In this document: piece after piece, positions 15,801-63,433 of the stretch | Layout: every line of letters starts with the position of its first letter | How positions within the stretch are numbered: the stretch's first letter is position 1 | Source: Argopecten irradians | Lineage: Eukaryota; Mollusca; Bivalvia; Pectinida; Pectinidae | DNA: 64,000 bases | Assembly: GCF_041381155.1 (NCBI RefSeq) | Contig: NC_091137.1 | Location: 15,681,765-15,745,764, forward strand | Direction: 5' to 3' | Position numbers and translations under genes: made by a program | Notes under the pieces: generated by a model | The model's input: only the letters and a program-made list of their open reading frames with translations | Told to the model about the DNA's origin: nothing | Databases searched by the model: none

Positions 15801-18800
15801 CTAAGACGGCTTGTTGCAAACATCATAAAACGGAGGCTGTGAAATTCTTTTGCGAAAACTGTAAATATGGAATATGTGTCAAGTGTCTCCTTGGTGCTCA
15901 TGGTGACCACAACGTTACTGATGTCACAACAACACTCAACTCAAAACGAAATGATTTAAAACAATGCATCCACCATATCCACGATCAAATATGGATTTTA
16001 CAAGACATACTCTTTAATCTTACTTGTTTGGAAGGTAAAATAAAGGGCAAGTACGAGGAAACAAAACTGCAGATGAAAAAGAGCTCCCGAAAACTCGTAA
16101 ACAAAATATTTGGTGCAGAAGTGAAACTTTTATGTGAACTAGATGAAGCATACCAGCGACAATCAGATGATGTTTACAGACGTAAAGAGCAGTGCAGGAC
16201 ACATCTGGAACAGTTCAAAAGCCTACAGTCACGGCTGGACGGCATTTTGAATGTCGAAGATGTTGACAAAGTTCTTGAGAACTACACTGACATTCTGAGT
16301 GAAGTTCACGAAATCAACATAACTAAGCAATACAAATCAAAATTTCTGAAGTTTCCGGAATCTATGGAATTTGTTCCCAATGGAAGCGTCTCCATAGGCA
16401 AACTCAGCTTAGAGCCTAATGATATACAGGTGCGTAAAAGAGCATCATCACAACACAGACTACTATCGCGATCAACAAGTAGACCGGTGAAACAAACAGA
16501 GCAGTCAGGGAAATCCTTCTCTGCTCAAGGAACGAAACACAGACTGGCGTCCCCTGCCAGTCAAAATAGAAATACTGGACGGTCGAGAAATTCTCTTCAC
16601 AAAAGTCAGCCAATACTGTTTGATCAGCACAGCGAAGATTCTATTAGCCCCGATCTCCCGCATGCATCAATCACGTATGATCCACAGAGGTATCGTGAAG
16701 AGATGTCCTCAAACTCTGAATGTGTCCCTGCTGTGAAACTCGTGTATAAAGTAAACACTTCTGGTGCTGGACGCGGGCAGCTCAGTCTTCCATTTAGTGC
16801 TACCTTCGACAAAGAAAACCGCCTGCTTGTTGCTGAGAATGGCAACAAACGATTGCAATTGTTCGGAAACTATGGTCACACGGTCAAGGTCATTGGATTA
16901 TCAGGTTGTGTGCCGAGGTGTGTCACCACAACGTCTCATGGTGATGCATTCGCACTCACAGACGAGGAATCAAAGTGTGTGAAAATATTTTCAGAGGAAG
17001 GAACTCTCATCAAGGAATTGTACACTGCTGGAGACGCTTTTCCTTTTGGAATCACCACACTAGCCGATGATAAATTTGCCATATCCGATATCATATATGA
17101 AAGTGTTTCTATTATTTCAACAAATGGGGAAAAAGACATACGGTTTGGTTCACATGGAAATGTGTCAGCCATATTAGAAAATCCTTCCTACCTTACCACA
17201 AACCTGTACGGCAACATCTTGGTGTCAGATTCAGGCCATCATGAGGTCAAAGTCTTTGATGGACTGGGGAATTATCTCTACAAGTTTGGAGGGTATGGCA
17301 CAGGTAGGGGACAACTGAGGTACCCTAAGGGTATCGCTTGTGACAGGAATGGTCTAGTGTATGTAGCAGACTCTGGTAATGATAGAGTGGCGGTTTTCTC
17401 TGAGGTAGGCCTGTATTGTGGGGTACTCGTTGGTCGGGAGAGTGGGATAAAACGGCCAACAGGTTTAGCGTACAGTCCCAGTGGCCTAGTGGCCATAACA
17501 ATGCCAGACAATGACGAGGTCTGTGTGTACGAACTGACACGGCCAATGCCGCGATCTATCACACAGTAAGATCAAAAGCTTGTGAAGCGTTCACTTACAA
17601 ATTCAAAACAACATTTTTCCAAAATATTAAATTCATTTTTTTTCATTGAAATATTTTATCAACCACCTCCATCTCATTGTATTTAGTTTACAAATCTTAC
17701 GATCCACAAATATATTCAAACGATGAGCTACCATGTTGATTTTTTCTGTCAATTTTTGTAGCATATGGTTGCCTTTATGAACTAGGTCTACAGAACACAT
17801 ATTGGTACTAAGTTTGATTTGATTATAACTATTTTTCATTTTACATCACTTAAATATTTAATCATTCAGTGACCTATTTAAATGTTTACATGTAAGCACA
17901 CTGTAACACAAAGATACTATCGACATTGCCATTAAATGTTTGCCTTGGCCACAGACCAAGTACAATATTTCTAATTGTGTTAAAGAGAACAAACCGTAAT
18001 GTGCGTGATCTAACAGGCCAAACTTGATGGCATGAAATGCTGCTTATCAAGTTCAATATTAATTCTGTTATTTTGTAGATAACAGTAGCATGTAGACAAA
18101 GGACACAACATTAACTTATCATCTGTGAACTGATAGGAATTTAGTTATATAAGCTATTAATTAGAAACTAAGTTTATATAAGATCCAAGTCAATAAGAAA
18201 TTTGATAAATGTAATCTCTGAGTAAGAAAATTAGCTTTTATAGCCTCTAAAACATAAAATAAGTTTCTATGAGTATGAATCAAGAATTTAGTTTATATAA
18301 GCCTAGAGTCAGGATTTAGTTATGAATAATATTTGTTTTATGCAGAAATTTCGTTTGTATAAGCTAAGAATAAAAAATTTAGATTGGATAATCCCTGAAT
18401 CAGAAATTTAAGGTTTTAAGCTCTGAATAAGAAAATAAGTTTTACCAAGGTATGAATCAGGAATTAAGTTTCGACAGTGTTTAAGCTCTGTTACTGGAAA
18501 AACGTCTTCATATAAACTATAAAACAATATTACAGAAAGACTTATCCTAGTCATAGATTTTACAAAGCTGTAAAATCTTATTGATATTACAATGTGTTAC
18601 TCACGAGACTATTGTCATTACACCTGCTACACTGACATGTGAAGTAATACTGCTCCGACAGCTGTCTTTGTCTCTCGGCTTTGGTAGCCAGCTGGTCCAC
18701 ATAGCTTATAGATATCTACAAACAGGTCACACATCAGTACAACTTAAATTACCGAGAACACTCATTACTACATCAGACCAAAACATATAATTATTTATAA

Positions 18801-24574: not shown

Positions 24575-26212
24575 TGCTGGAATAGATAAAAGTAGATAGG
24601 TTAAAATCATGATAAAAAATGAGGTGTTTATTTGTGAGTGGGGGCTTCAAGGGCTACGTGGTTTATGTTTGCCTTGAAGCCCTCCAGTGTAGTGTTTTGT
24701 ACTGTTGCCACAGGGAGGAGATTCCAGTATGTGATGGTGTGTGGGAAAAAGGAGTACTTAAATGTATCCTTTGTGGCGGCGATGTGTCTGTATGCATAGG
24801 GATGTGTGTGTCTAGTGCGGGTGTCTACAGGTGTTAGGTATTGTTCTGGGTTGATGGCAACGAGATGGTGTGTGATTTTGTATAGGAGGATGAGTCGTGA
24901 TTGTAGACGGCGTGTTTGTAGTGTTGGCCATTGGAGTGTGTATAACATGTCTGAGACTGAAGAAGTGTTATGATACCTGTTTTGTACATATCTTGCTGCT
25001 CTGCGTTGAGTTTTTTCTATTTGTTGTATTTGGCCAGTATTGTGTGGGTCCCAGATAGAGGAGCAGTACTCAAGTTTGGGTCTAACAAGTGCTTTATATG
25101 CGTGTTCTTTAATGTGTGGTGAATTGATTGTGAGGTTTCGTTTTAGGAAACCTAGTGTTCTGTTTGCATTTGCGGTGATGTTGTTTATGTGTTTGTCCCA
25201 TTGGAGGTTGTTTTGCAGTGTGAGGCCTAAGTATTTACTGTGTTTGACGTGTTCAAGTGAGTGGTTATGGAGAGTGTAGTTGTGGTGGATTTTGTTGCGT
25301 TTGGTGGTAGTGGAGATGACGTTGCACTTGTCGGGGTGAAATTGCATTAGCCAGTCGTGTTCCCATTGTCCTGCATTGTCAAGGTCTTGTTGTAGTTTCT
25401 GTGTGTCTTCTTGTTTGTGTATGGTCTTGTAAATGATACTATCGTCTGCGAAAAGTCTAAGGGTGCTGTGTTTCATGTATTCATGTAGGTCGTTGATATA
25501 TATTAAGAAAAGTATGGGGCCCAGACAGGTTCCTTGAGGGACTCCGGATGTTACTGGGTATTTTGTGTGAGTGTTTGCCCTCGAGTATTACTGTCTGGGT
25601 GCGATGTGAAAGAAAATCTGTTATCCATGCATGTGTGTTACCTGTGATGCCGTAGTATTTGAGTTTGTACTGAAGGCGTTTGTGTGGTACTTTGTCAAAG
25701 GCTTTTGCAAAGTCCATGATTATGATGTCTGTCTGCGTGTTGTTGTTGTGGTTTTGTGTGAGGTCGTGTATGAACGTGGCCAGTTGGGTTTCGCACGATC
25801 TGGAAGGTCTAAAGCTGTGTTGTTTGTCGTAAAGTATGTTGTTGTTTTTCCAGATGTGACATGGTGGCGCTGGTGATTATATGTTCCATTAATTTGCATG
25901 TGATGCATGTGAGTGATATTGGTCTGTAGTTTGCGGGATTGTATTTGTCGCCTTTTTTGTAAATGGGATTGACATTTGCGTGTTTCCAGTCGTGGGGAAG
26001 TGTTCCTGTGGTGAGTGAGCATGTAAATATTTTTGTAAGGATTGGAGCTGTGATGTCTTTGAGTTCTTTCAATATTCTGCCATGGATGTTGTCGGGGCCA
26101 TTGAATGCACCTACCTTTTGAAGCATGAATCACACCTTCTGCCTCTCTGTTTATGTGACAATACGTGTACAAATGGTTCTGACTGTAACAGTATGTCGCC
26201 TTTTCTCTTCAT
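6865..26212 (-). CDS. SMYD3-like SET and MYND domain protein lysine methyltransferase
   Basis: Transfers methyl groups from S-adenosylmethionine to lysines of histones or other proteins; the actual substrate is unknown. Coding exons: 26212-26115, 23442-23379, 23058-22948, 22473-22407, 22142-22015, 21768-21701, 19258-19150, 18715-18605, 9028-8962, 8790-8665, 8338-8164, 7903-7795, 6981-6865. They sum to 1350 nt (449 aa plus stop), with GT/AG and matching phase at every junction. The MYND zinc finger is complete: C27, C30, C40, C43, C49, C53, H61, C65. SET core: NSFTVCDGELQPIGVAIYLS, then DHSCEPN at 184-190 and ISYVDQL near 218. Post-SET cysteines: TCQCSRC at 241-247, then a further cysteine cluster. 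The C-terminal helical region includes MKVGKIQLYLEQCPQALMTL and ends RVRMSIQD. Human SMYD3 is 428 aa. Oddities: Asp replaces Asn of the usual NHSC, and the first ATG starts about 25 residues later than in SMYD3. An upstream exon carrying the N-terminal SET strand is likely (frame open as VTTEEM, AG at about 26227) but was not found. Confidence 0.93.
7137..7731. repeat. 84-bp minisatellite, about 7 copies, in last SMYD intron
   Basis: TGTAGAGGCATTTCAAG recurs at 7143, 7227, 7311, 7395, 7479, 7563 and 7647, exactly 84 bp apart, with few changes. Variants mix between copies: CATACCTG or CATAACTG, GTCACACTA or GTCCCACTA, CCATGACAT or CCAAGACAT. Because 84 is a multiple of three, the minus strand stays in frame as a 28-residue unit (YVMEKRRAGHLVGLL...), except in copies with GTCACACTA, which read TGA. 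The unit next to exon 12 is open. Confidence 0.95.
9031..10842. other. SMYD intron 8, left part, with degenerate GCGGC/TATTGC repeats
   Basis: Bases 9105-9360 and 9820-10010 are filled with imperfect copies of short motifs such as TATTGCCGCAC and its complement GTGCGGC, including a perfect 16-bp palindrome GTGCGGCTAGCCGCAC at 9186-9201. Bases 9360-9820 and 10010-10842 show nothing definite. The ORF at 10564-10815 resembles no known family. Confidence 0.5.
10845..11088 (+). mobile_element. Short pearl-like element copy
   Basis: Begins TTTTAGCTCACTTGG and ends GGGCCTCTTGTTT, the two ends that also bound larger elements at 45655-46757 and 50606-51968. The core is reduced to about 240 bp, so this copy is deleted or is a minimal form. 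Confidence 0.55.
11341..11515. repeat. Palindromic fold-back element (175 bp)
   Basis: Long inverted arms: 11341-11425 (GTTTCGAGATCC, GTAAAGTACAATTTACCGTC, GATTATGACGTCA) mirror 11435-11515 almost base for base. The arms contain GACGTCA, a sequence resembling a cyclic-AMP response element. It lies in SMYD intron 8. No ORF; probably a non-autonomous DNA element. Confidence 0.85.
11934..13502 (-). mobile_element. Pearl-like element with 330-bp tandem core, copy A
   Basis: An inverted counterpart of 45655-46757. Reading minus, it starts with TTTTAGGTCACCTGAGAC as one arm of a short hairpin, passes a CGTC/GTCG-rich stretch (TCGTCGTCCGTCGTGCGTC), then about four diverged units of roughly 330 bp marked by TTTTGGCCCC (about 12290, 12617, 12943, 13275). 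It ends at AAGAGGCCTTG...AAGGTGCCC-type sequence near 11937. No transposase was seen. Short ORFs inside are translations of the repeat. It sits in SMYD intron 8. Confidence 0.75.
13503..15289. other. SMYD intron 8 and 5' flank of the nested TRIM gene
   Basis: No repeat or exon was recognised with confidence. This stretch should contain the TRIM promoter. A possible 5' UTR donor (TTGTAG|GTAAAT) lies at about 14815, but no matching acceptor could be fixed. Confidence 0.35.
15290..17569 (+). CDS. TRIM-NHL protein (RING, two B-boxes, coiled coil, NHL propeller), single exon
   Basis: Probable E3 ubiquitin ligase, 759 aa in one uninterrupted exon. The RING finger is complete: C20, C23, C35, H37, C40, C43, C73, C76. 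B-box 1 spans about 117-158 (TCDVCGEKV...CCKYFCVNC). B-box 2 spans about 175-207 (CKHHKTEAVKFFCENCKYGI...HGDH). A helical, probably coiled-coil region follows at 215-345, then a serine/arginine-rich linker to about 490. NHL repeats fill about 490-755, with clear units such as LLVAENGNKRLQLF and LVYVADSGNDRVAVF. The start is the ATG in ATTATTATGGCAAAG. The gene lies on the strand opposite SMYD inside its intron 8. Intronless TRIM-NHL genes are numerous in bivalves and often linked to innate immunity; that role is inference here. Closest vertebrate relatives would be TRIM2/3/56/71-type proteins, but orthology cannot be assigned. Confidence 0.97.
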   Translation: MAKSLSPAMASRTPSDLTRCAICLGDQMSPRALPCLHSFCETCLEKHVQTSHISIGQQSLTFRGQQYQKSFPCPTCRTSTAMPSSGVQGFPKDFRIIEFKEAWRSTKESKVGNAPTCDVCGEKVPLKTAESFCVDCCKYFCVNCSSRHNKNTVLRSHIMVPITKDLTLDCSKTACCKHHKTEAVKFFCENCKYGICVKCLLGAHGDHNVTDVTTTLNSKRNDLKQCIHHIHDQIWILQDILFNLTCLEGKIKGKYEETKLQMKKSSRKLVNKIFGAEVKLLCELDEAYQRQSDDVYRRKEQCRTHLEQFKSLQSRLDGILNVEDVDKVLENYTDILSEVHEINITKQYKSKFLKFPESMEFVPNGSVSIGKLSLEPNDIQVRKRASSQHRLLSRSTSRPVKQTEQSGKSFSAQGTKHRLASPASQNRNTGRSRNSLHKSQPILFDQHSEDSISPDLPHASITYDPQRYREEMSSNSECVPAVKLVYKVNTSGAGRGQLSLPFSATFDKENRLLVAENGNKRLQLFGNYGHTVKVIGLSGCVPRCVTTTSHGDAFALTDEESKCVKIFSEEGTLIKELYTAGDAFPFGITTLADDKFAISDIIYESVSIISTNGEKDIRFGSHGNVSAILENPSYLTTNLYGNILVSDSGHHEVKVFDGLGNYLYKFGGYGTGRGQLRYPKGIACDRNGLVYVADSGNDRVAVFSEVGLYCGVLVGRESGIKRPTGLAYSPSGLVAITMPDNDEVCVYELTRPMPRSITQ
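17570..18604. other. SMYD intron 8, right part, and TRIM 3' flank
   Basis: AT-rich. Bases 18120-18480 show a loose repetition of AAGTTTATATAAGCTCTGAATAAGAAATTTAG-like stretches about 45-60 bp long, an old degenerate tandem array. An ATTAAA at about 17626 may serve TRIM polyadenylation. No other gene was seen. Confidence 0.4.
19259..21700. other. SMYD intron 6
   Basis: No exon or full element recognised. An ACATGT/TACATG simple run lies at about 20507-20530. The small ORFs at 21171-21601 look random. Confidence 0.45.
24345..24438. repeat. Hairpin element with GCGTCTGCGTCTGG arms
   Basis: The arm CACAGGCGTCTGCGTCTGGT followed by GGAAAAATAAA is mirrored by TTTATTTTTCC and ACCAGACGCAGACGCCTGTG; the spacer is about 27 bp. 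TACATGTACAT tracts flank both sides and extend the symmetry. It lies in SMYD intron 1. A small palindromic element, with no ORF. Confidence 0.8.
24542..26108 (-). mobile_element. 5'-truncated non-LTR retrotransposon (LINE), reverse transcriptase fragment
   Basis: Reverse transcriptase motifs appear in order on the minus strand: NGPDNIHGRILKEL, PIYKKGDKYNPANYRPISL, MDFAKAFDKVPHKRL, VTSGVPQGTCLGPILFLIY, RLFADDSIIYK, SKYLGLTLQNNLQWDKHI, and a C-terminal region with LVRPKLEYCSSIWDP and IEKTQRRAARYV. The style is that of the Jockey/CR1 group; the exact clade is not certain. The ORF ends at 24628, followed by a short 3' UTR and a poly(A) tail of about 32 (poly-T at 24542-24573 on plus). Two frameshifts were noted, near 25855 and near 25570. 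The 5' end stops just before the GPDN motif, within about 15 bp of the SMYD exon 1 donor. The poly(A) tail and few breaks suggest a fairly recent, dead-on-arrival insertion. It has the same orientation as the host gene. No clear target duplication was found. Confidence 0.93.
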
Positions 26213-28756: not shown

Positions 28757-30833
28757 TCACTCACTGAGAATCCTCCTAGCTTTTACTGTGGCCCAGTGCC
28801 TGAATGCTGCATTGTAGTCCATTTCTCCTTCCTTTCCATCAATGCTGAGACGGAGAAGGTGGTCCAGTGATCTGGCACTAAGTCTGTTCCTCAGGCAAGA
28901 CTTGATCAGGTTCTGTCTAGAGAATCCTCTCTCGCAGTCGACGGTTGATACCGGAAGTACCAGAAATCTCCTACACATAGCTGCTACAACTGGGAAAATG
29001 TCATTGCACCTAATGTTTAGCTGTGCCACATCAAAAACTAACTTGACTCCCTGACTGCCTCTAACTACCTGTGCATTGACGTAAGCCTCAAATCCTATCA
29101 ACTCCTGTTCTAAACAACTTGCATCTCCTAAAACACACTTTCCAAAATACTCAACCACAGTACTTAAAACCTCACAGTCAACTTTCTTCTCTGCAACTGG
29201 ACTCAAAACCTGAGAAATAGCAGTCATGACCCTAGAATCAGCCCTATCGCTAAACCTCTCCCTCAAACTACTAACAGTGTGAGTGACAAAACTGGTCACA
29301 AGCAGAGACAGCCCCATTCCTCTGACCTACACTATCCCTAATTGTATGTCCCTTGAACTCAAACTGGCAAGTGTCATCATCACCTAGAACAGGCTCACTA
29401 GGAACAGCTGCGAGAAACTCCTTCAAAACTGGGCCAGACTTTGAATCACGAAGATCCTCTAAGACAGAAATGGTGGATGTTAAGAGTGGTTCAACCTCAG
29501 AAAACTCAACCCAGACTTCTGAAAACACTTACTAAGGACAGAGAGATGTTTCAGAACATCAGACAAGAAGTGGGCACAGTACAGAAACTTGTAGTTAGAA
29601 ACTGGCTTATGGAGACTGAGAGACTTGGCAGAATTTTCCTCAAGGAACACTGACAGCATAGCAGAGTAATTCCTAACTAAAGCATGGACACTTCCCTCAA
29701 AACTGAGCCACCTAGTATGAAACACCTGTTTAAACCTACTATGACCAACACCATCTAACACTGTCTGAATTCTTTCAAGAGATGCCATGTGCTTAGGAGA
29801 GAAATGAAAGTATTTGAATATAGAATTCGAAATTTCCTAAATTTCACTAAGTAGCGTACCTTGTCTGTCCCAAAACCACAACCAAGAGCCAACCTGTGAG
29901 CATTACAGTGAACTGAAAGTAGGCCTGGACACACTTCCTTAAGTCTAGTGACAACACCTGACCTACAACCAACAATTACTGCAGCACCATCTGTAGCCAT
30001 ACCAACAAACTTACTAGTATCTAAGCCTTTCTCCCTAAGCACCTGAAGAACCTCACCAGTGATTGCATCAGCATTAGCCTGAGACATTTGCCTAACCGCA
30101 AGAAAGTATGACTTTGGGATCCACCTACCACTATTCTCCTCCAATATGCGTATATATACCAAAAGATTCTGATGCACAGAGATATCTGTAGATTCATCTA
30201 TCATAATACTGAACAACTCTGACTTCCTAATCCTATCAACTAACCTATCCTCTAAGACCTTAGCAAGGGAAGGCTGAAACTCCTCTACAGACTGGTTGTG
30301 AGTGTAAGATGCATGGTTGTTCCGGTGCAAATCTCGTAACTGCTCAACGCCCTGTGAAATTCAAATAATGAATTTAATCAGTTACATAATTATGATTATC
30401 ATAATCACTTAAATGTACATGTATGTTATATTGCAGTCTACACAATCCATGGTTATCTTTAGATCAGGACATTGAAAGCAATGTTTCAAATTTTTATACC
30501 TAGGCCTGATTATAATCATTTTGATAAACATGTATGTAGAATTAAAGAATCTTAGATCTTACTATATATATTTAATGATATTTTTTTAAATTTTATTTCA
30601 ATTTGCATTAAAAAAAACCATTTCCTATTTCAATGAAATACCTACCTGTTCAATGCAAAGTCCATTTAATTTCACTGCTGTGGAGTTGGGTAAGTCGTTG
30701 ACAGCAGCAAAGAATACATTCCGAAGGGCAGCAATAACAGCATTTTTGTTTTTGCTGACAGCAGCCGCTCTGGCAGTATCTAAATCCTTACCAAGGTTGA
30801 TAATCTCCAGTGCACGGACATGACTGTTGTTGC
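28757..30833 (-). pseudogene. hAT-superfamily transposase-like gene, decayed
   Basis: Two exons were seen on the minus strand: 30833-30646, joined in phase to 30351 onward. The reading shows DESTDISVHQNLLVYIRI and GMATDGAAVIVGCRSGV (transposase catalytic core), SVHCNAHRLALGC, RIQTVLDGV...FHTRWLSFEGSV, and finally the hAT C-terminal dimerisation region with LPVSTVDCERGFSRQNLIKS and LRNRLSARSLDHLLRLSI. The type resembles ZNF862/C17orf113-like proteins. The frame is broken about three times, near 29835, 29500 and 29305, so this copy is probably inactive. An upstream zinc-finger exon may lie beyond 30833 but was not found, nor were terminal inverted repeats. It could be either a dead transposon or a pseudogene of a domesticated transposase. 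Confidence 0.85.
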
Positions 30834-35200: not shown

Positions 35201-35690
35201 TTTCCAACACCATACGCAAAGTCGATGTTTCTATTGTAATGTCACGATAACGTTGAGTTTTCGCGTCATTCTTGGATGTTTTTTTCTTCGTAGAGGTACG
35301 AAGAAACATAAAAGGTCAATCAGACAGTCTGATTTACAATAAAAGTATGAAAAAAAAAAAAAAAAGAAAATGATTATTGACAAATGAAAAACAAAAGTCG
35401 AAATTCTCTTGGTGACATTTTTTCAGTATTCAACATACAAATATTGACTTTTTGTAGGGAAATACGAGGGGATTGTTAAACCTGAGAAAGGTGATATTAC
35501 TGGAGGCCGAACCTTTCAAACAATCCTCGTATTCACTTACAAAAAGTCATTAATTGTTTTTGTTATATGAAACGATACAAGTTTTGCTATTTGAAACAAT
35601 TTTGAAGCAAGGACAGCGCAATAACCATAATTGAAAAAAATCAAAATCTTCATCCACGTATCATCTGAAGGTATTTGTACCTAACTTTAA
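32239..35690. other. Intergenic region before FMO-A
   Basis: Mostly featureless AT-rich DNA. Bases 33120-33350 form a pyrimidine-rich tract. Bases 33597-33670 are a relic of the 330-bp core of the pearl-like element (CTAAAATTTCAAAAATCTTCT...ATACTCTTCCTAGATAG). A poly(A) run lies at about 35346-35365. FMO-A 5' UTR and promoter should lie near the right end. Confidence 0.45.
35446..35549. repeat. Palindromic fold-back element (104 bp)
   Basis: GACTTTTTGTAGGGAAATAC and GAGGGGATTGTT are mirrored by AACAATCCTCGTATTC and ACTTACAAAAAGTC. It lies about 350 bp before the FMO-A start codon. No ORF. Confidence 0.75.
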
Positions 35691-35693
35691 CTT

Positions 35694-35904
35694 GGCCCTT
35701 TTCAGACCAGTAACAGTTTAACCTCAGAAACTGCCTAACTTTAGGCCTTTTTCAGACCAGTAACAGTTTGACCTCAGAAGACTGCCTAAATTTAACTAGA
35801 TCCTTTTTTTTCAGATAAGTAATAGTTTGACTTCAGAAGACTGCCTAACTTTAACCAGGCCTTTTTTCAGATCTGGAACAATTTTACCTTAGTAGACTGT
35901 GACA
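35694..35904 (+). repeat. Four degenerate 50-60-bp repeats with acceptor-like T-tract plus CAG, abutting the FMO-A start
   Basis: Units start near 35694, 35743, 35800 and 35858. Each carries a T-rich run ending in TTTTCAG, then GTAACAGTTTGACCTCAG-like sequence and GACTGCCTAAC-like sequence. In the last unit the final part reads CTTAGTAGACTGTGACA and is followed directly by the ATG. The pattern looks like tandem copies of an intron-end region. Confidence 0.7.
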
Positions 35905-38900
35905 ATGAAGGAAGTGGCCGTTATAGGGGCAGGGGCCAGTGGTCTCACTGCCATCAAGTGTTGTTTGGACGAAGGGCTGGTACCCACGTGCTTCGAAAGA
36001 ACCAGTGACATAGGTAAGCACATTGTATTACATGGGTGTTTGTTTGTTTGTTTGGTTTGCTTTATTATATTTAACAGCCAGGGTCATGTAAGGACATGGT
36101 GTATTGCGGGTATGAAGTGCGAGGTGCGTGTTTTGGGAGTTCAGCATATTCGTGTTGTGTCTTCTTGTAATGTGGAACAATTGCCTTTTCATAGTGCTAT
36201 ATCACTGAAGCATGCTGCAAAAAAAAAAAAAAAAAAAAAAACACCAAGCAACCCGATCTACCATGTCACATTATACTGTCTGACAACGGGCAAACGAGTC
36301 GTTCAACCTCCTTACTGCTGAACGCTAAGCAGGAGCAGACACTACCACTTTTATAGATTATGGCATGTGTTTGCCAGAGGACAGAACCCAGAGCCTACCT
36401 TTCATGGGCGAGCGCTCAACTGAAGGCCAAAAAAGAGGCATTGTCAAGGGAGACGTTAGGAAGAAAAAAGTTTGTTAACAATAAGAGAAGATATCAATCA
36501 AATTCACATTCAAATCACGCTCCATCATTTTGGTGAATGCAAAGGTATAATAATTAATTTGTATATTTGCAGGCGGGCTGTGGAACTACACGGATGATAT
36601 AAGAGATGACCAGGCGTGTGTGATGAAGTCGACAGTCATTAACACCAGTAAAGAGATGATGTGTTATAGTGACTTCCCAATCCCAGAGGAATTTCCTATG
36701 TATATGCACAACAAGTATGTCAAGCGGTACTTCCAAATGTACGCGGACAACTTCAAACTGGCCAAGTACATTCAGTTACACACCGAGGTAAGTTCTGTTT
36801 GAGCTGGTTCTCATTATCATGATATTTGTGATGAAGGTCTATTAATGAAAGAGAAATCAAAGACACTGTTGATCAGGAGTTGGATGGAGATTCTGTTTTA
36901 GTTCTGATCTTGCCTGATCGTTCCCTTGTTGCCATCAGGTTCTTATTTGAGATGATTGTAACAAGAGTTGCCATTATAATCAAAACGTTTGTTTCTTACT
37001 TTTGAATAGTTTTGTTATTTGTCAGAATATGAATACAAAGCTTTTTCAGGCAAATGTGGTAACCTTTCTTGTCGGACTTGGTATAATATTATGGACTCAA
37101 ATGTTTACTGTAGATAAAAAAACTAAGTTTACAATTTTTTTAGGTATTTATGTATTGTTTTTCCGAATGGCCAGCAAAACGGCAATAGAGTGGGTCAAAA
37201 GTTCGCATCGTTTTCCATTGTTTTCATTGATTGATTCAAAAGTCGAATTTGAAATATAATAGTTTAGGGACAAAAACAGAATGCTTAAAGTTGGGCATGG
37301 AGATACTTACCTACATGATACGGTGGGCTGCGGATTTTAACTCAACACGAAACTCTTTTTCTGAAGGTATTGTCCATAAAACAAGCCGAGGATTTCGACA
37401 GTAATGGACAATGGATCATTACAACTCGCGACAAAAAGACAAAAAACGAAGTCACCAAGACTTTTGACGCTGTGTTGGTGTGCACAGGCCACCATGCCAG
37501 TACGAACAAACCGGATTTCCCGGGACTTTCTAAATTTAAAGGCAAGGTTCTGCACTCGCACGACTATAAGACGCCTCATGATTACCTGGATCAAAGGGTT
37601 GTCATCATAGGGATTGGGAATTCTGGAGGTGACGCAGCCGTGGAACTTAGTCACGTGACTTCTCAGGTAAGCTTCTCTAATTAAAGAATAAAGATAAAAA
37701 TAGAATTTAATTTTTAATTAGATCACGCAAAGGTAACATATAGTGATGCAGCTTTCATTCATTCATTAGATTAATTGATATTGGTAAATATATCCTATAA
37801 ATATAATTAGTTATATAAGCCTTATACGCTCTACTAATCCATGCTTTATGGATACATCTTTCGCCTTTACCGTTATGAAGTATGGTCTATGTGTGAAAAT
37901 TCGTATTAGCAATAAGGATAACTACAATCATAGTATAATGTATAATATAAAGAATAATTTGGTTTGTTAGTTGTAACTCCTAAAATAAATGGAATTGAAG
38001 AATGCTGTCAAAGTGCATATTTAGTCGATCCTGAGCATATGTTCGGCTAGATACCAAATATATTTAAAGACAGGATTTGTCAATATTTTCCAATGTATTC
38101 TGCATGTTATGTATACGCGTGAGGATATTTGGTGTGAGCATATTTTCTTTTTTTCATTAATATTCTATGCCATGAAAATGGGATGGTGCTGCACCCTCTA
38201 GTTATATACTTGACTAAATAAGTATATTTATTGTGCATGTATTTGCAGGTTTTCCTCAGCACAAGACGGGGTAGTTGGGTACTGAACCGTATAGGTCCAA
38301 ACGGTCTACCTGTTGACATGGCATTTTCCTCCAGGTTGATGACGTCTATGTTGAAAATCATCCCGATGTCTATCCTAGAATCGATGGCACGTTCTCAGGT
38401 GAACAAAAGATTCGACCATGCAGCCTATTCATTACAGCCAGAGCATTCCTTCTTTAGCCAGCATCCTATGGTCAACGACGAACTGCCTAATCGTATTGCC
38501 AGTGGCTCGGTCAGAATCAAAACAGATATCAAATGTTTCACGGAGAATGGCGTGGAATTCACAGATGGAACAAAAGAAAATAATATTGACGCTGTGATTC
38601 TTGCTACTGGCTATGTGTTCGGGTTCCCTTTCATTGATAAGTCCGTCATTGATGTTCAGGACAACCGCATAGAACTATTCAAATACATGTTTCCACCAAA
38701 CCTTAAAAAGTCCACCATTGCCATCGTCGGTTGTGTACAGCCAATTGGTGCATTGATGCCAATATCCGAACTTCAATGTCGACTTGCAACCAGGGTGTTC
38801 AAGGTAATGTAAAACCAACAGAATTCGATCATGCAATTACTGGTAAAATAACTGATGGAGACGTACTGATTAAGTTATTTTCTTGTATTCTGTACTTTAG

Positions 38901-41433
38901 CAGGATAATAGTGACTGAACAATGAACATTCTTTTATATGTGCAGCTTTCCAGTGGATGGCAAATTTAATCAGATAAAACCAATAGTTTCTTGATCTTTA
39001 TATAAAAGACAAATGGAAAATTTGTAGAAGAATCTTACACCTTTGATTGTAATATATTTAAATATGTTACTGTCCAGGGATGAGTGTTTAAATATAAATA
39101 TATTGTGTAGGGCGATGTGGTGTTACCATCTAGGGATGAGATGTGGGCCGACATTCGAGGGAAGGAAGAGATGATGAGACGGAGATATGTGAAATCTAAA
39201 CGCCACACCATACAAGTAGACTGGATTCCTTTTATGGACGAGCTCGCCACATTGAATGGCTGTAAACCAGACCTTAGTAAGTATACACTTTATTGATACC
39301 ATCACTTACGATAAAATACCATTAAATAAAATGGCTGTAAACCAGACCTTAGTAAGTATACACTCTTATTGATACATACCATCACTTACGATAAAATACC
39401 ATTAAATAAAATGGCTGTAAACAGACCTTAGTAAGTATACACTTTATTGATACCATCACTTACGATAATGAATACCATTAAATAAAATGGCTGTAAACCA
39501 GACCTTAGTAAGTATACACTTTATTGATACCATCACTTACGATAAAATACCATTAAATAAAATGGCTGTAAACCAGACCTTAGTAAGTATACACTTTATT
39601 GATACCATCACTTACGATAAAATACCATAAATAAAATGGCTGTAAACCAGACCTTAGTAAGTATACACTTTATTGATACCATCACTTACGATAAAATACC
39701 ATTAAATAAAATGGCTGTAAACCAGACCTTAGTAAGTATACACTTTATTGATTCCATCACTTACGATAAAATACCATAAATAAAATGGCGGTAAACCAGA
39801 CCTTATTAAATATACACTTTATTGATACCATCACTTACGATAAGTATAACTTCTCAAGTTCTACCAGTCCGATTTAGCTGAAACTTACATGAAATGATCC
39901 TGACATGGTACCGACAAAGTGTTGTTATTTTTTGAGTCGATCCGAAATCCAAGATGGCAGCCACAGCCGTCATCTTGAAAAAACATTTTGAACTTCTCAA
40001 GTTCTACCAATTCGATTTGGCTGAAACTTGCATGAAATAATCCTGACATGGTACCGACAAAGTGTTGTTATTTTTCGTGTCGATCCGAAATCCAAGATGG
40101 TCGCCACAGCCGCCATCTTGAAAACACATTTTGAACTTCTTCTGAAGTTTTACCGTTACTATTTGGCTGAAACTTGTATGAAATGATCCTGACATGGTCC
40201 CGAAAAAGTGTTGTTATTTTTCGTGTCGATCCAAAATCCAATATGGTCGCCACAGCCGCCATCTTGAAAACACATTTTGAACTTCTTCTCAAGTTCTACC
40301 GGAACTATTTGGCTGAAACTTGCATGAAATGATTCTGACATGGTCCCGACAAAGTGTTGTTACATCTCTGGTTGATCCCAAATCGAAGATGGCTACCATG
40401 ACACTACATCTAATTAATTTCCTATGTGATTATTGCCAAGGTAGTCAGATGTCCGTTAAGGCCCTTGGGCCTCTCGTTTTTTACGTGACAACAAATACAA
40501 ACATCAAATAAGACATATGACATGGGTTTTCCACATTTAGCCCTCTTAAAATATTAAACTAGAATGATATATTATGTATCCACTGCCTATTATATTAATG
40601 GTTGACATATTTTACACCCCCCTTATATTGTTGTTTGTTTTCACCTGTCTTTGTCATTCCGTTCAACCGTGTATCGAATACCAAACTATAATCTCAATAA
40701 TGGTATCAGATTTTGGATGTTTGAAATGTCATTGCCACATTCGACAGTTTTTAATTCTCCAAAGCCACATTCAGCATCCGGCCATGCATAATGGTCCATA
40801 AGGAATTTTGAAAGTGTTTTGGAGTTCCACGGTCTTAATTTTTGGAATCTGTTTCTATTAAAAATATTAAATCAGATTCTTTGCTTAGAACGTTGTTTTG
40901 ATTTGCGACTCCGTTGTGTCATTCGAACTCATTGGATATTACGTTGACCCCGAATCCAATCTAGCAATCGTATGTTAGGTGTTTTCACAAAGAACACTTA
41001 CTCTAACAGTAAACACCAGGGTTTTATTCTCCGTGTCCTTTCTTAGGAATAAAATATATTTTTATCCATTTATCCTATCCAGTCTTTGTGTATTTGTTTT
41101 CTATTTAATGATCGGCATAAGTAATGTTTTAAAATAATCTTGAACAATAAACAATTTTTGTTCTAAACTTATCATCCACTTACAGAGCTGTTGCTTCGGC
41201 ATGATCCACAGCTTGCGATGAAGTGTATGTTCGGACCGTGTACCCCTTACCAGTTCAGACTGGAGGGACCGGGGAAATGGAGCGGTGCTAGAAACGCGAT
41301 CTTCACGCAGTTTGACCGTACCATGAGCTGCCTGAAGACGAGACCGTTAGGATTTGAGCCGAAAAAGTCTCGAGGAATATTGCTGTTCTTTCTAGTCGTA
41401 CTGCTTGCTGTTATGTATAAACTGTTCTTCTAA
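35905..41433 (+). CDS. Flavin-containing monooxygenase (FMO-A)
   Basis: FAD- and NADPH-dependent enzyme that oxygenates soft nucleophiles such as amines and sulfides; expected on the ER membrane. Exons: 35905-36013, 36573-36787, 37367-37666, 38249-38803, 39111-39276, 41186-41433; total 1593 nt, 530 aa, all phases consistent. FAD site GAGASG at 8-13. FMO identifying motif F165-x-G-x3-H-x3-Y175 ([11 protein letters not shown]). NADPH site GIGNSG at 190-195. [16 protein letters not shown] near 277-290, ATGY at 327-330, [16 protein letters not shown] near the end, and a hydrophobic C-terminal anchor ([14 protein letters not shown]) with a short tail. The length matches the family (about 530-535 aa). 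An upstream in-frame GTG exists, but the ATG at 35905 matches FMO-B. Intron 1 holds a SINE-like repeat, and intron 5 a tandem array copied from the end of exon 5. Its tandem partner is FMO-B, 12.6 kb downstream. Orthology to a given vertebrate FMO cannot be assigned. Confidence 0.96.
36038..36480 (+). repeat. Dispersed SINE-like element in FMO-A intron 1
   Basis: Starts after TGTTTGTTTGTTTGG, holds TTTAACAGCCAGGGTCATGT, TTCGTGTTGTGTC and a poly(A) run at 36219-36241, and ends with GGCGAGCGCTCAACTGAAGG. The head matches 5822-6075 (inverted) and the tail matches 43540-43660. It is probably two repeat modules or one long non-autonomous element. Confidence 0.65.
39255..39835 (+). repeat. Minisatellite (74-80 bp, 8 units) copied from the end of FMO-A exon 5 and its splice donor
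   Basis: CTGTAAACCAGACCTTAGTAAG begins in exon 5 at 39260 and recurs at 39335, 39415, 39491, 39565, 39640, 39715 and about 39789. Each unit carries the last 17 coding bases of the exon, the donor GTAAGTATAC and about 57 bp of intron start. Six extra units keep a perfect donor; the last reads TTAAAT and has lost it. The array is nearly uniform, so it is probably young. Confidence 0.95.
39838..40482 (+). mobile_element. Pearl-like element with about 145-bp tandem core, partial
   Basis: Follows the exon-derived array directly. Units start with AACTTCTCAAGTTCTACC and carry CCATCTTGAAAACACATTTTG (about 39967, 40108, 40255). It ends AAGGCCCTTGGGCCTCTCGTTTT, the 3' signature of the family. No TTTTAG hairpin end was seen, so this copy is 5'-deleted. 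Lies in FMO-A intron 5. Confidence 0.7.
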
Positions 41434-45654: not shown

Positions 45655-46757
45655 TTTTAGGTCACCTGAGACGCAGGTGACCTATTCTAATCGCCTTTTG
45701 TCTGTCGTCGTCCGTCGTGCGTCGTGCGTCGTATGGCGATAAACAATTTAGTTTTTCGACTTCTTCTCCAAAACTATTGAACCAAATTTGTTGAAATTTT
45801 GCAGAAACCTTTCATAGCCAAAGGTGAACCAAAATTGTGAATTATATGGTCCTAGCCTCTCGGGGGCCTGAGGGGTGGGGCCAAAAGGGGTCAAATAGGC
45901 TAAAACTTCAAAAATCTTCTTCTGAAATTCCAGAAATGGTAAAATCCAATACTCTTCATAGATTGAAAGGTCTTGAGGTCCTTTACAAAAATTGTGAATT
46001 ATATGACCCTGGGGTCTCACGTTCCTCCCTGGGGAGGGGGTCAAGGTTACTATAGTTTAAATTTGGAAAAATATATTTTTGAGCATTATTTGGTCATTTA
46101 TAATAGGAAATGAGTCAAACTTTGTTAGAATTATTAGCCTGAGATAGTGTTTTAACATCATATTCATATTGGTCCTGGCCGACCCCCAGGGACCAGAGGG
46201 CGGGGCCAAAATTGGTCAAAGTGGCTAAAATCTCAAAAGTCTCCTTCTGAATTCACAAATTTGATGGAACCAAATACTCTTCATAGATTGGAAGGTCTTT
46301 TTAAGGCCCTTTTCAAAAATTGTGAATTTCATGGCCCAAGCATCTCGGACTTTCCCCTGAGTAGGGGGTCAAATCTATTATAGTTTATATTGGAAAAACA
46401 TATTTATGAGCATTATTTGTTTAATTTTCATAGGAAACAGTCAAACTTGGTTAGAATTATTACCCTGCGATAGCATTTCAGCATCTTATCCATATTGGTA
46501 ATGGCCAACCCCCAGGGGTAAATGGGCCGGGCCAAAAGGGGTCAAAATGACTAAAATTAGAAAAAAAACTATTCTGAATTCACAGATTTGATGGAACCAG
46601 ATACTCTTCATAGATTGAAAAGTCGGTTATAAAATCACTGACTGGTTTCAAGGGCCTGATGGGTCAATATATATATATATATATATAGTGTTTATATGTC
46701 TTTTTTCATTCTGCATCCGAACTCAGGTGATCGCTAAGGCCCATGGGCCTCTTGTTT
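45655..46757 (+). mobile_element. Pearl-like element with 330-bp tandem core, copy B
   Basis: Opens with TTTTTAGGTCACCTGAG, ACG, CAGGTGACC (a short hairpin), then CTATTCTAATCGCCTTTTG, a GTCGTC/CGTCGTGCGTCG run, about three 325-bp units marked by GGGGCCAAAAGGGGTC (about 45877, 46199, 46527), a (TA)n run at 46669-46688, and the end GGCCCATGGGCCTCTTGTTT. It is the same family as 11934-13502, in the opposite orientation. No ORF. Confidence 0.78.
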
Positions 46758-50605: not shown

Positions 50606-51968
50606 TTTAGCCCACCATCAACAGATGGTGGGCTATTCAAATCGCTTTTTGTCCGTGGTCCGTGGTCCGTCTGTCCGTCCGTCCTTCCGTCCTTCCGTCC
50701 GTTAACAATTCTTGTTACCGCTATTTCTCAGAAAGTACTGAAGGGATGTTTCTCAAATTTCATATGGAGGTTCCCCCTAGGGCCCTAGTTGTGCATATTG
50801 TATTTTGGGACCAATCGGTTAACAAAATGGCCGCCAGGCAGCCATCTTGGATTTTGATAGTTAAAGTTTGTTACCGCTATTTCTCATAATGTATTGGAGG
50901 GATCTTTCTCAAATTTCACATGTAAGTTCCCCTAGGGGCCTAGTTGTGCATATTGCATTTTGAGACCAATCGGTTAACAAGATGGCCGACAGGCCGCCAT
51001 CTTGGATTTTGATAGTCTAAAGTTTGTTACCGCTATTTCTCAGAAAGTACCGAAAGAATTCTTCTCAAATTGCATGTGCAGGTTCCTCTAGGGGCTTAGT
51101 TGTGCATATTGCATTTTCGGACTGATTGATGAGCAAGATGGCCGACAGGCCGCCATCTTGGGGATTTTGAGAATTAAAGTTTGTTACAGCTCTTTCTCAG
51201 AAAGTACTGAAGGGATCTGTCTCAAATTGCATGTGCAGGTTCCCCTAGGTCCCTGGTTATGCATATTGCATTTTGGGACCGATTGATGAACAAGATGGCC
51301 GACAGGCCGCCATCTTGGATTTTGATAGTTAAAGCTTGTTTCCACTATTTCTCAGAAAGTACTCAAGGGATCTGTATCAAATTGCATGTGCAGGTTTTCA
51401 TAGGGGTCTAGTTGTGCATATTGCATTTTCGGACTGATCGTTGAACAAGATGGCCGACAGGACGCCATCTTGGATTTTGATAGTTGAAGCTTGTTACCAC
51501 TATTTCTTAGAAAGTACAGAACGGATATGTCTCAAATTTCATGTGCAGGTTCTCCCCTAGGTCCCTGGTTATGCATATTGCATTTTGGTATCGATCAGTG
51601 AACAAGATGGCCGACAGGACGCCATCTTGGATTTTGATAATTGAAGGTTTTTTTCCGCTATATCTAAGAATGTTCTGAAGGGATCTGTCTCAAATTGTAT
51701 GTGCAGGTTCTTCTAGGGGTCTAGTTGTGCATTTTGCATTTTAGGACCGATCGGTGAACAAGATGGCCGACAGGTAGCCATCTTGGATTTTGATAATTGA
51801 AGTTTGTTACTGTTATATATCTCAGAAAGTAGTCAAAGGATCTTTCTCAAATTTCATGTGTAGTAATATGTAGTAAAAGCTTGAAAAGTAGAGAAAATAT
51901 CCCTCTTTCCTTTGTCAGACAAAGATCGTTCTTAGGTGGGCGCCAAGATCCCTCTGGGACCTCTTGTT
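50606..51968 (+). mobile_element. Pearl-like element with 156-bp tandem core and CCGT run, copy C
   Basis: Opens TTTTTAG then CCCACCATC...GATGGTGGG (hairpin), CTATTCAAATCGCTTTTTG, and a GTCCGT/CCGT run at 50650-50702. About seven units of 156 bp follow, each carrying AGATGGCCGACAGGCCGCC and ATCTTGGATTTTGATA (at about 50840, 50996, 51152, 51310, 51466, 51622, 51778). Ends CCTCTGGGACCTCTTGTT. The tandem core plus ACGG-type microsatellite recalls the bivalve pearl family. It is inserted inside the 78-bp minisatellite array. Confidence 0.82.
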
Positions 51969-52930
51969 ACATGTTAAATTAGTAATGATAAGTAATGATA
52001 GTAAACATTGTGTTATGAGTAGTGAAGGATTGGGTGTCGGTTTTTACATGTTAAATAAGTAATGATAAGTAATGATATTAAAAATTGTGTTATGAGTAAT
52101 GAAGGATTGGGTGGTCGGTTTTTACATGTTAAATTAGTAATGATAAGTAATGATATTAAACATTGTGTTATGAGTAGTGAAGGATTGGGTGGTCGGTTTT
52201 TACATGTTAAATTAGTAATGATAAGTAATGATAGTAAACATTGTGTTATGAGTAGTGAAGGATTGAGGGGTCGGTTTTTACATGTTAAATTAGAAATGAT
52301 AAGTAATGATATTAAAAATTGTGTTATGAGTAGTGAAGGATTGGGTGGTCGGTTTTTACATGTTAAATTGGTAATGATAAGTAATGATATTAAAAAATGT
52401 GTTATGAGTAATGAAGGATTGGGTGGTCGGTTTTTTACATGTTAAATGAGTAATGATAAGTAATGATAGTAAACATTGTGTTATGAGTAGTGAAGGATTG
52501 AGGGGTCGGTTTTTACATGCTAAATTAGTAATGATAAGTAATGATAGTAAACATTGTGTTATGAGTAGTGAAGGATTGGGTGGTCGGTTTTTACATGTTA
52601 AATTAGAAATGATAAGTAATGATACTAAACATTGTGTTATGAGTAGTGAAGGATTGGGTGGTCGGTTTTTACATGTTAAATTAGAATGAATGATACTAAA
52701 CATTGTGTTATGAGTAGTGAAGGATTGGGTGGTCGGTTTTTACATGTTAAATTAGAAATGATAAGTAATGATACTAAACATTGTGTTATGAGTAGTGAAG
52801 GATTGAGGGGTCGGTTTTTACATGTTAAATTAGTAATGATAAGTAATGATAGTAAACATTGTGTTATGAGTAGTGAAGGATTGAGGGGTCGGTTTTTACA
52901 TGTTAAATTAGTAATGATAGCAAAGCATTA
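51969..52930 (+). repeat. 78-bp minisatellite (12 units here, one more at 50540-50605) derived from LINE endonuclease codons
   Basis: The unit contains AGTAATGATAGTAAACATTG, TGTTATGAGTAGTGAAGG and GGTCGGTTTTTACATG, with small indels. At 78 bp it is 26 codons and reads MISNDIKHCVMSSEGLGGR followed by FLHVKLV in an open frame over several units. The GRFLHVKL part matches the conserved GRFL-x-V-x-L stretch of LINE endonucleases that precedes the N-x-YAPN motif, which follows the array at about 52940. Confidence 0.9.
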
Positions 52931-54068: not shown

Positions 54069-57000
54069 ATGAAGCGAGTAGCGATAATTGGAGCAGGTGC
54101 TAGTGGTCTGCCTGCAATAAAGTCGTGTATAGAAGAAGGATTAGAACCCATCTGTTACGAAAAAGCAGATCAACTCGGTAAAATTCGATTTGTATTTTAC
54201 AATACAGTTATCATCTCTGTCATCTATTGTCTCAAAAATTTCTTAACTATTTATATAAAACAGTGTTTTGGTTCCATTGTTAGATTGGAATTTGGTAATT
54301 AAGTTTAGTCAATTACTTCAAGTTATCATCGCATTAAACCACTGGCACAGTCCATTTTCAATCATATAATTTTAGCACGTTAAGTATTTGTCATTTAATA
54401 AATAAAACAAAATGATAATATCAGTGTATTCCCTTAGATAAACATTTTACTACATGTATTCCCCTTATATCTTTAATGTACTAAATGTAAAAAAAAACAA
54501 CGTCTATTCAGGTGGGCTGTGGAATTATACTGATGAGGTGAACGAAGACCAACCGTGTGTTATGAAATCCACTGTAATCAACACGAGTAAGGAGATGCTA
54601 AGCTACAGTGACTTCCCTGTACCTAAGGACTATGCCATGTTTATGCAGCATACATACGTTCTCAAATATCTTCACCTGTACGCTGAAAAGTTCGACCTAG
54701 CCAAATACATCCACCTAAAAACCGAGGTAATCAACATTGTATAATTTAAGTTTTCATAACACATTTTTTTTACATGTATTTGTCTTCTGAATAACGATTA
54801 GGCTTTTTCTTCATTAACTGATAATAGGAATAGTTGTCGATTCTTGGACATACATATTAAAAATGAGATTTATTGTTGTCAAGCATTCGAAAATACAATA
54901 ATATGATTTTTTTTAAACAATATCTAAAGACAGCTATTGTCTTCAGGAACCAGCTTTATGTTCGATTTATTTGGTTTCTACGACGAGATTACAAAAATAG
55001 TACATCTACTTGTAATCAACCTCCTTCATTATATTAAAGACTATGTGATAGTGACCTTGTATCTGTCGAGAGAAGTAGCTGAGACGATATCTGGTGTTAT
55101 ATCTAGGTGCAGTCTGTAGTGATGGCTAACGATTTTGAAACATCCGGTAGATGGGACGTTACAGTCAAAGATATACCAAGCGGTGAAATAAGTACGAACA
55201 CTTATGACGCAGTTATGGTCTGCACTGGTCAACACACATACAAGTACAGCCCAGAGTTCGCTGGAGCCGATGAATTCAGCGGTAAAATACTGCATTCCCA
55301 TGACTACCGCGACTCTCGAGGTTATGAAGACAAGAATGTAATCGTGGTCGGTGTTGGAAACTCCGGGGTAGACACCGCTGTGGATCTATGTAAAACAACC
55401 AAAAAGGTAGACTAATTAGTATAGCTCGCCTCTTATTAGTATCAGGCATAGTGCTCATATATGACTAGGTAGTACTATGGGAGATAACTCGTTCAATACA
55501 TAGCCAAAATCATTCTTGATATCAGTTATGAAATCAAATGACATGGTTCTAGCATTCACATGCCCCGAACTGAATTACTTTACTTAAGCTATTGGTTATA
55601 AGCTTTCACTCCTTATGTTTTATTTCTTATGAAATGTCATTATAATCATATAAACCCGATAATTAAAGTCTTTTTGATCTCTCACAGGTGTATCTTAGTA
55701 CTAGACGTGGTTGTTGGGTATCAAAGAGGATAACAGGAAAGGGTCTACCTAATGACATGGAAGCCTACAGGCGGTATCTGTTGCTCATCAAAAAACATCT
55801 TCCAAAGAGTATCCTGGATTGGGGAATGATTCGGAAAAGTAACCAACAGTTCGACCACAAGGCTTACTCCTTAAAACCTGATCATGGCTTCTTTTCTCAG
55901 CATCCGACTATAAACGACGATCTGCCTAATCGAATCGCAAGTGGTACGATCGTAGTGAAACCAAACATCAAACGTTTCCATGCCAACAGAGTGGAATTTG
56001 ATGACGGGACGACTTTAAATGACATCGACGCCGTAATACTGGCCACTGGGTATAAGTACAAGTTCCCATTCCTTGATTCGTCACTGATAGAGGTGAAAGG
56101 GAATAGAGTGGACCTGTACAAGCATCTGTTCCCGCCGAATCTGAAACACAACACCCTTGCACTTGTTGGTATTATGCAGCAGATTGGAGCTGTGTTCCCT
56201 ATATCTGAACTACAATGTCGCCTGTCAGCAAGAGTTTTCAAGGTGTGTAACAATGTCTTTTTACTTTAATTATGATTTCTCACGTTTATTATTTTTTAAA
56301 ATGTTAATTTCATTTTTTGAAAACGTTTATTTCATTTTTTGAAATTTCTAAATTGCATTTTGTATCCACATGACAAAGTGTGATTTTTTATATTTAATTA
56401 TAGATATCTGTCAATCTCACTGGGCTATCTATAACATATTTATATATATATAATCGGTGCCTTGTGAGTTTTCTTTGTTAATGCGTCTGGTCCGAGTTTT
56501 ATTTCATTGGTAAGTTGTTTCTTGTGATCATTTTGTATACACGATCATATATCGATCTATTGACCGCTATGAAATATGAACCTTTGTGTTTGCTATGCTC
56601 AGTTCAGACTCTCTTCAGGTTTTTCTACTTGCACACGACGGTCTCTTGGTAACGCCGGTAATGTTTGGTATATATCTGTGAAATTTGAAATGTATTTCAC
56701 TACATGTTTTTTTTTCTTACTAGTGTATTTACACCATGTAATATATTACTGTAAAATATACTGTTGCATGTTGTTTAGAATATAAAAAGGTTTTTTTTTT
56801 TCAAATGTACATTATGTTGGGAGTAAACTCCACTTAATTTAAAGTTATTTTATTTTCGTTTTTATTTGTCTCTTTTTTGTTGACTTGTGCATAAATTTGA
56901 CCTCTCTTTCATCTTGTGGAGTTTCATTTTACTTTGCAGTGACACACACTTACCACATTTTCAGGGGGATATCCAACTGCCCTCTAGTTCTGAAATGTGG

Positions 57001-57824
57001 GATGACATCAACCAGAAAAGGATGGTTATGACCAAGCGATTTGTCCAATCAAATCGGTACACTATGAAGGTAGATAGTGTACCATATATGGATGAGCTTG
57101 CAGAGCTTCATGGATCAAAGCCAGATTTATGTAAGTTTTGAACCTTTATAAACCTCCTATACCCGCGACCTGTAAAGTAAGACTTGGTAAGTCAATGATA
57201 TGGGTTATGGATCCCGGAAACGTAGCCATGAATCTATCATGGTGGTTTAATAAACGATTGATTTCTTTCCAGCATAATCCACAAAATAATTATATATTCC
57301 GTTGACGCCATGCATCTACAACACAGCTATCGCAGCATAGCATCTGGTTGTGCTCAGCTAATAAGAATTTTAATTTCAGTATTGTCGACAGCCTCTTGAT
57401 CGTTAAGTATATTTCCGTAACACTGTAATCAAACATAACAGAAACTTTCTTTCTAGTGAAAAGCCAAAAAGAAATTTTGCTCACTCAACCCAGTGGTTGG
57501 ATTGAAATTATATTTATAATTCTGGACTTAAATGTAAAAGTGTTAAAGTCCTATTTTTTGCCTTTCGCAGATCGCCTTGCCATGTCCGACCCGAGTCTGG
57601 CGTTCAATTGTTTTTTCGGTCCATGCACACCCTACCAGTTCCGGTTGGAAGGTCCCTGTCCGTGGGACGGTGCCCGTGACGCCATACTGACCCAGTGGGA
57701 TCGTACGTGGCACCCAATGAAGACGAGGCCAACAGGTCCCTGTTCCTGGACGGAGTCGGCAGACACCTTCGTGTACACTATAGTGTGCCTACTGATGGCA
57801 TACATAGTCTTTGTAATGTTTTGA
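54069..57824 (+). CDS. Flavin-containing monooxygenase (FMO-B)
   Basis: Tandem paralogue of FMO-A with the same expected chemistry (FAD/NADPH N- or S-oxygenation at the ER). Exons: 54069-54177, 54512-54726, 55107-55406, 55688-56242, 56965-57130, 57571-57824; total 1599 nt, 532 aa, all in phase. The first five exon lengths equal those of FMO-A exactly. FAD site GAGASG at 8-13. FMO motif F-x-G-x3-H-x3-Y ([11 protein letters not shown]). NADPH site [51 protein letters not shown], and a hydrophobic C-terminal segment ([18 protein letters not shown]) that ends the protein with no charged tail. The start ATG lies 2 nt after TTTTTTTTTTACAG, so a 5' UTR intron is likely. Introns are short and largely free of the arrays seen in FMO-A. 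Both copies look functional. Confidence 0.96.
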
Positions 57825-63361: not shown

Positions 63362-63433
63362 TGTGTCTTTAATCTGGAAAAATGCAGAAAAAGATGTTAA
63401 AAATTTTACTTTATCGTCAACTTTAAGTCCACG

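Follow-up and report, generated by a model that had tools for sequence, protein, structure and literature searches.

The window, that is, the whole 64,000-nucleotide stretch of Argopecten irradians DNA analysed here, contains two related genes of the flavin-containing monooxygenase (FMO) type, referred to as FMO-A and FMO-B (Table 1). The FMO-A model is a prediction, with splice sites that were placed by hand and aided by a tblastx comparison with FMO-B. The encoded protein matches PF00743 (FMO-like) over residues 2-525 (E 1e-211), and its best PDB matches are ancestral animal FMOs (6sek, E 6.3e-190). With a full-length domain and relatedness to solved FMOs, the predicted product is an animal flavin-containing monooxygenase. 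The intact frame and the Pfam match suggest that exon 6 is, or recently was, joined from the native exon 5 donor. The acceptor of this intron was found where the original prediction had placed it, with the AG ending at 41185 and exon 6 beginning at 41186. The intron between exons 5 and 6 occupies the same place and phase in the two genes; in FMO-B, it spans 57131-57570 (440 nt) and has a GTAAGT donor, and its FMO-A counterpart is 1909 nt long. At a tblastn threshold of E 0.01, neither exon 5 nor exon 6 had a third copy in the window. Elsewhere in the window, a long single ORF of the TRIM/NHL type (RING, B-box, NHL repeats) lies at 15308-17566.

Table 1. Features of the FMO-A locus and its surroundings (positions are those of the window).
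Feature	Position	Strand	Remarks
Four-copy array of ~59-bp units	35680-35899	+	Putative acceptor repeat just before the FMO-A start codon
FMO-A gene model	35905-41433	+	Six coding exons, 530 aa, intact frame; exons joined: 35905-36013, 36573-36787, 37367-37666, 38249-38803, 39111-39276, 41186-41433
FMO-A exon 5	39111-39276	+	166 nt; last 22 bases belong to array unit 1
Donor-spanning minisatellite	39255-39843	+	TRF period 75, 7.8 copies, 95% matches, score 1066
Native exon 5 donor	GT at 39277	+	Inside array unit 1
Six extra GTAAGT donors	39352, 39431, 39508, 39583, 39657, 39732	+	Span 39352-39737
Copy 8	39784-39843	+	Shortened edge copy of the array
Right part of Helentron/HINE-like element	39848-40474	+	3.7-copy 146-bp array and right flank
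FMO-A exon 6	41186-41433	+	Last coding exon; carries the hydrophobic C-terminal tail
HINE-like element, apparently complete	45659-46757		Hairpin 45659, GTC-type microsatellite 45700, palindrome 46736
HINE-like element, apparently complete	50609-51970		Hairpin 50609, GTCC microsatellite 50665
FMO-B, partial model	54069-57824	+	Paralogue; exon 3 start unplaced; starts 18 kb downstream

In FMO-A, exon 5 ends inside a minisatellite that also takes in its splice donor. Its eight units start at 39255, 39330, 39410, 39486, 39561, 39635, 39710, and 39784, with spacings of 75, 80, 76, 75, 74, 75, and 74 bp, which, like the TRF result, bears out the eight repeats at 74-80 bp that had been described from the sequence. 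The repeated exon part consists of the 22 terminal bases of exon 5 (39255-39276), rather than the 17 first counted, and the intron part of 53 bases, rather than about 57, comprising the GTAAGT donor and ~47 more intron bases. The shared segment begins with AATGGCTG. At the donor, TTA is followed by GTAAGTAT in seven of the eight copies, giving six donors beyond the native one, and the equality of all seven donors is borne out over the cores of copies 1-7. The description of these donors as perfect holds for the intron side, where positions +1 to +8 pair with U1, but not for the exon side, which reads TTA and not CAG. In copy 8 the donor has been lost: of its 60 bases, three depart from copy 1, and two of these three changes turn GTAAGT into TTAAAT. 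The array thus has units within 10-100 bp that include the native splice donor, and a donor-like GTAAGT in every unit except copy 8. The plus strand of the 64-kb window carries 20 GTAAGT sites, 7 of which fall within the 589-bp array and together span 461 nt; at the density found outside the array, 589 bp would hold 0.12.

The relationships among the copies point to a young array. Copies 4-5 and 6-7 form a duplicated two-unit block of 149 bp (99% alike), and both blocks share a one-base deletion (in copies 5 and 7), as expected of unequal exchange; growth by slippage or unequal exchange would be the usual picture for a minisatellite. Private changes were found in copies 2, 3, 7, and 8, including insertions in copies 2 and 3 and the loss of one C from the exon-derived part of copy 3, while the 22 exon bases of unit 1 are identical in copies 2, 4, 5, 6, and 7. 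Copies 1-7 are nearly identical, with 34 mismatches in 1558 compared bases of a MAFFT alignment, a figure that is too high because indels of copies 2, 5, and 7 were misplaced. Since these copies differ so little, the conservation of their donors is uninformative on selection. Copy 8 diverges more than the others, the indel-rich stretch of copy 2 aside; no weight is placed on the location of two of its three substitutions in the donor (~3% by chance, a post hoc estimate made by hand). The corresponding intron of FMO-B, identical in phase, contains no array, so that of FMO-A is probably derived, as judged from the two genes compared. An exact 25-base pattern from the array unit had no match in viral contigs, and nothing recognisable as this gene or array was found in the limited literature collection searched.

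A second repeat in the same gene, immediately before the start codon, may be the mirror image of the donor array, in that a putative acceptor is repeated. Each of its ~59-bp units contains a branch-like CTAAC or CTAAA, a pyrimidine tract, and a CAG; the AG ends lie at 35705, 35755, 35814, and 35870, with 10-11 pyrimidines in 14 positions and scores of 7.42, 8.41, 11.65, and 2.54 on a matrix built from the nine other FMO acceptors. No ATG occurs between 35680 and the start codon, so the choice among these putative acceptors would alter just the length of the 5′-UTR. In FMO-B, too, the ATG is directly preceded by an acceptor-like site (score 9.69), but the upstream regions of the two genes do not align (best E 0.15). 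Tandem arrays occur elsewhere in the window as well. The last intron of a SMYD3-like gene (7135-7730, minus strand) contains seven copies of an 84-bp unit, three of which carry CTCTACAG followed by GTATGT, resembling a recursive splice site, and four of which have TTATGT. A 37-bp array of 15.5 copies (63427-64000) reaches the window end.

Coverage of a splice site by an array is an expected outcome in this gene. With random positions in the gene, an array of 589 bp overlapped one or more coding junctions in 75% of trials, and when the three arrays of the gene were placed independently against 11 sites (a set that includes the putative 5′-UTR acceptor), sites were covered in at least two cases in 72%. 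The position of the array over the donor is therefore no evidence of function or selection.

A few bases past copy 8, the donor array adjoins the right half of a Helentron/HINE-like element, in which the 146-bp array is followed by a right flank with the palindrome AAGGCCCTTGGGCCT at 40458. A related palindrome follows another array at 46736. The HINEs of the Pacific oyster are described as having a left inverted repeat with a microsatellite, tandem repeats, and a right palindrome (PMC7492417). The order of repeats and palindrome at 39848-40474 fits the right part of these non-autonomous Helentrons of Crassostrea gigas (Cg_HINE, PMC7492417), whereas the donor array is itself made of host sequence, exonic and intronic, and no left end was found for the intron 5 element. 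Neither a hairpin with 8-base arms nor a run of GTC units (GTCY) was detected in 38900-39850, and the same tests were positive at both other elements of the window, which have 326-bp or 155-bp repeats and a right palindrome or similar end. A search for an inverted 12-base right end near the element gave none at up to two mismatches and one chance-level match, in exon 5, at three; this test counts for little, having also missed the left end of a control element. The donor array occupies the place where the left end would be expected, and a link between truncation of the element and the birth of the array is a matter of speculation. Two further mobile-element ORFs lie on the minus strand of the window, one of a reverse-transcriptase element (24628-26208, with PF00078 in 24631-25587) and one of a hAT-type transposase (28757-30360, with PF05699 in 28757-29326).

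Whichever of the six extra donors is joined to 41186, the predicted product is one and the same 454-aa protein, made up of 448 FMO residues and SKYTLY and ending at a TGA. The expectation of an early stop past the native donor was thus correct, although six codons, not seven, precede it. NMD typically acts on a stop more than 50-55 nt before the last junction. For the extra donors, in order, the stop would lie 55, 134, 211, 286, 360, and 435 nt upstream of that junction, a layout in which donors 3-7 are predicted to give NMD-type transcripts and donor 2 (55 nt) is borderline. The proposal that such products would be truncated, perhaps soluble FMOs is weak. A related fold can end nearby, since 8z12, a solved 432-aa flavin-dependent monooxygenase, aligns just to residue 438 of FMO-A. 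On the other hand, exon 6 contributes 82 of the 530 residues, and the loss would exceed the C-terminal anchor, because 58 of them (449-506) lie within the stretch aligned with the ancestral animal FMO 6sek; most of the transcripts, moreover, have the NMD layout. A role of the array as a splicing decoy is plausible. For the suggested length-variable regulator no evidence was obtained: the array is represented by one assembled sequence, it carries no folding signal (see below), and its placement is expected by chance.

Which donor would be used was approached through U1 pairing, RNA folding, and acceptor quality. By simple U1 duplex energies, the exon 5 donor and its copies (-7.5 kcal/mol) are weaker than the other four donors of FMO-A (-7.9 to -11.0 kcal/mol). 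The FMO-B exon 5 donor is at -5.4 kcal/mol; 56 nt beyond it, at 57187, lies a further, unrelated GTAAGT with -9.1 kcal/mol (57131-57192). With this stronger spare site in FMO-B, the presence of a second good donor near the exon does not set the array apart. In folding predictions, the native donor is more open (0.033) than the six copies (0.0016-0.0103), a weak hint that would favour the native site and little leakage. Each unit also contains ACTTAC, the exact complement of GTAAGT, which pairs with it in the minimum-energy fold of the unit. A structured-RNA switch was nevertheless rejected: neither single units (z -0.33) nor a 100-nt piece (z 0.15) folded better than shuffles, the whole array gave z -0.48 with 28 of 100 shuffles folding equally well (compared with z -1.78 for the FMO-B donor region), and the openness of the native donor changes little between the full array (0.033) and a single unit (0.025).

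The acceptor of exon 5 is poor in pyrimidines (6/14; the four remaining coding acceptors of FMO-A have 8-10), and its leave-one-out score of -4.66 is the lowest among nine FMO acceptors (range -4.66 to 10.07). Among the 19 AGs in 39330-39843, scored with a matrix from those nine acceptors, the best is at 39424 in copy 3 (1.89) and the remaining 18 score -1.01 or less; three of the nine FMO acceptors also fall below 1.89 when left out of the matrix. The array AGs have at most 7/14 pyrimidines and overlap the exon 5 acceptor in this respect. Nested or recursive removal of array units, as judged from these predicted sites, is not favoured. Duplicated strong donors can reportedly favour the downstream site, according to work of the Eperon group; if downstream donors were favoured here, FMO-A would be mostly unproductive. 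Multiple U1 occupancy is described as affecting site choice, with efficiency not lowered unless the sites are very close (PMC5389562).

Donor-spanning repeats are known from human genes. The VNTR in intron 18 of ABCA7 has 25-bp units, the first of which starts with the GT of the exon 18 donor; use of the donor one unit downstream leads to a premature stop, and cycloheximide raises the level of these PTC transcripts (PMC5954066). Skipping of exon 19 grows with VNTR length, whereas retention of one unit is length-independent, and NMD was not considered by the authors to explain the lower expression (PMC5954066). Both repeats lie at an exon end, include the native donor, and have a GT donor per unit. 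They differ in that the units of ABCA7 are GC-rich, present in at least 12 copies, without exon bases, and in an internal intron, according to that source (PMC5954066), while those of FMO-A are AT-rich, 75 bp long, include 22 coding bases, and stand before the last coding exon. The human minisatellite of IFI6 (6-16/G1P3) likewise supplies several splice donors, and two of its downstream repeat units reportedly act as donors, with variants that encode IFI6 isoforms (Turri et al. 1995), in contrast to FMO-A, where every extra donor would lead to the same early stop. By these sequence features, the FMO-A array is a member of the known class of donor-spanning minisatellites or VNTRs (ABCA7, IFI6). 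Its own features are the 22 coding bases per unit and the site before the last coding exon.

Tandem duplication has also been connected with the birth of introns. In the model for the potato RdRp gene, the duplicates are said to supply both the donor and the acceptor of a new intron. Such intron gain by tandem genomic duplication, for which potato RdRp is an example (PMC4974935), resembles the present case in adding splice signals to a gene. Intron 5 of FMO-A is, however, not new, since FMO-B has it at the same place and in the same phase. Human introns have reportedly been traced to tandem arrays, with repeats linked to alternatively spliced intron ends (Zhuo et al. 2007); that work concerns new introns, whereas in FMO-A the donor of an existing intron has been multiplied.

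The explanation that we favour, and that is probably though by no means certainly correct, is that the array is a young, unselected minisatellite which at most leaks some splicing into unproductive FMO-A mRNA. The end of exon 5 and its donor would have been duplicated in tandem, and the duplicate would have grown through slippage or unequal exchange into an array without selected function. The native donor would still make FMO-A, while a fraction of transcripts would be spliced from downstream copies and read into the TGA past SKYTLY; those from donors 3-7 would be removed by NMD, and those from donor 2 would partly escape. The net effect would be a modest loss of productive mRNA, perhaps varying with copy number. 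Such leakage has its closest studied analogue in the ABCA7 VNTR, although it does not show copy-number-dependent leakage, because one-unit retention is length-independent there. The explanation and its rivals overlap in part, and not all of them are mutually exclusive. The closest rival, which we consider rather unlikely, holds that the native donor is chosen every time through exon definition, leaving the mRNA unaffected. The intact gene model, the greater predicted openness of the native donor, the young appearance of the array, and the stronger unrelated GTAAGT past the FMO-B donor all agree with such silence, whereas the seven donors are equal over their cores, usage of a repeat donor is detectable in ABCA7 (PMC5954066), and two downstream units of IFI6 reportedly serve as donors (Turri et al. 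1995).

The other alternatives have a much smaller share of the probability. Intronic U1 sites can aid exon inclusion, and seven of them within 461 nt, next to an exon with the most pyrimidine-poor and lowest-scoring acceptor of FMO-A, might strengthen the recognition of exon 5 and raise correct splicing; this is distinctly improbable, and in the FMO-B model the equivalent exon is joined with no array present. Fainter still is the chance of a regulated switch, in which U1 and cleavage would compete along the array to yield a stable 454-aa isoform, whether by a switch to a truncated soluble FMO or to intronic polyadenylation. Each full repeat does contain an AATAAA (39325, 39405, 39481, 39556, 39630, 39705, and 39779), mRNAs that end in an intron with no downstream junction would escape EJC-dependent NMD, and the alignment of 8z12 shows how early a monooxygenase can end, but AATAAA is common (92 on the plus strand of the 64-kb window) and part of the aligned animal FMO fold is encoded by exon 6. 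An assembly artefact, with the copy number inflated or the array missing from raw reads, is given the same very slight chance: identical stretches longer than one unit could be mis-assembled, but the changes private to four copies, the one shared by copies 5 and 7, and the unique right junction of copy 8 argue against it.

A bolder reading, which we regard as very unlikely, would have FMO-A carry two splice-site minisatellites, a fourfold acceptor at the 5′ end and an eightfold donor at the last coding intron, with the latter grown where a Helentron-like left end was lost; rolling-circle or one-ended events of such elements might multiply host exon boundaries, and copy number would set the productive share of the mRNA. 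If this were true, exon ends would evolve in concert with intronic repeats. If the extra donors of the leaky minisatellite favoured here are used, FMO-A would offer, beyond the human cases, a naturally occurring row of equal donors within a single gene, on which spliceosomal choice between many identical 5′ splice sites could be tested directly. In either event, coding bases of FMO-A have become part of a minisatellite. Gene conversion could carry the intronic copies, of which copy 3 already lacks one exon-derived base, back into the exon.
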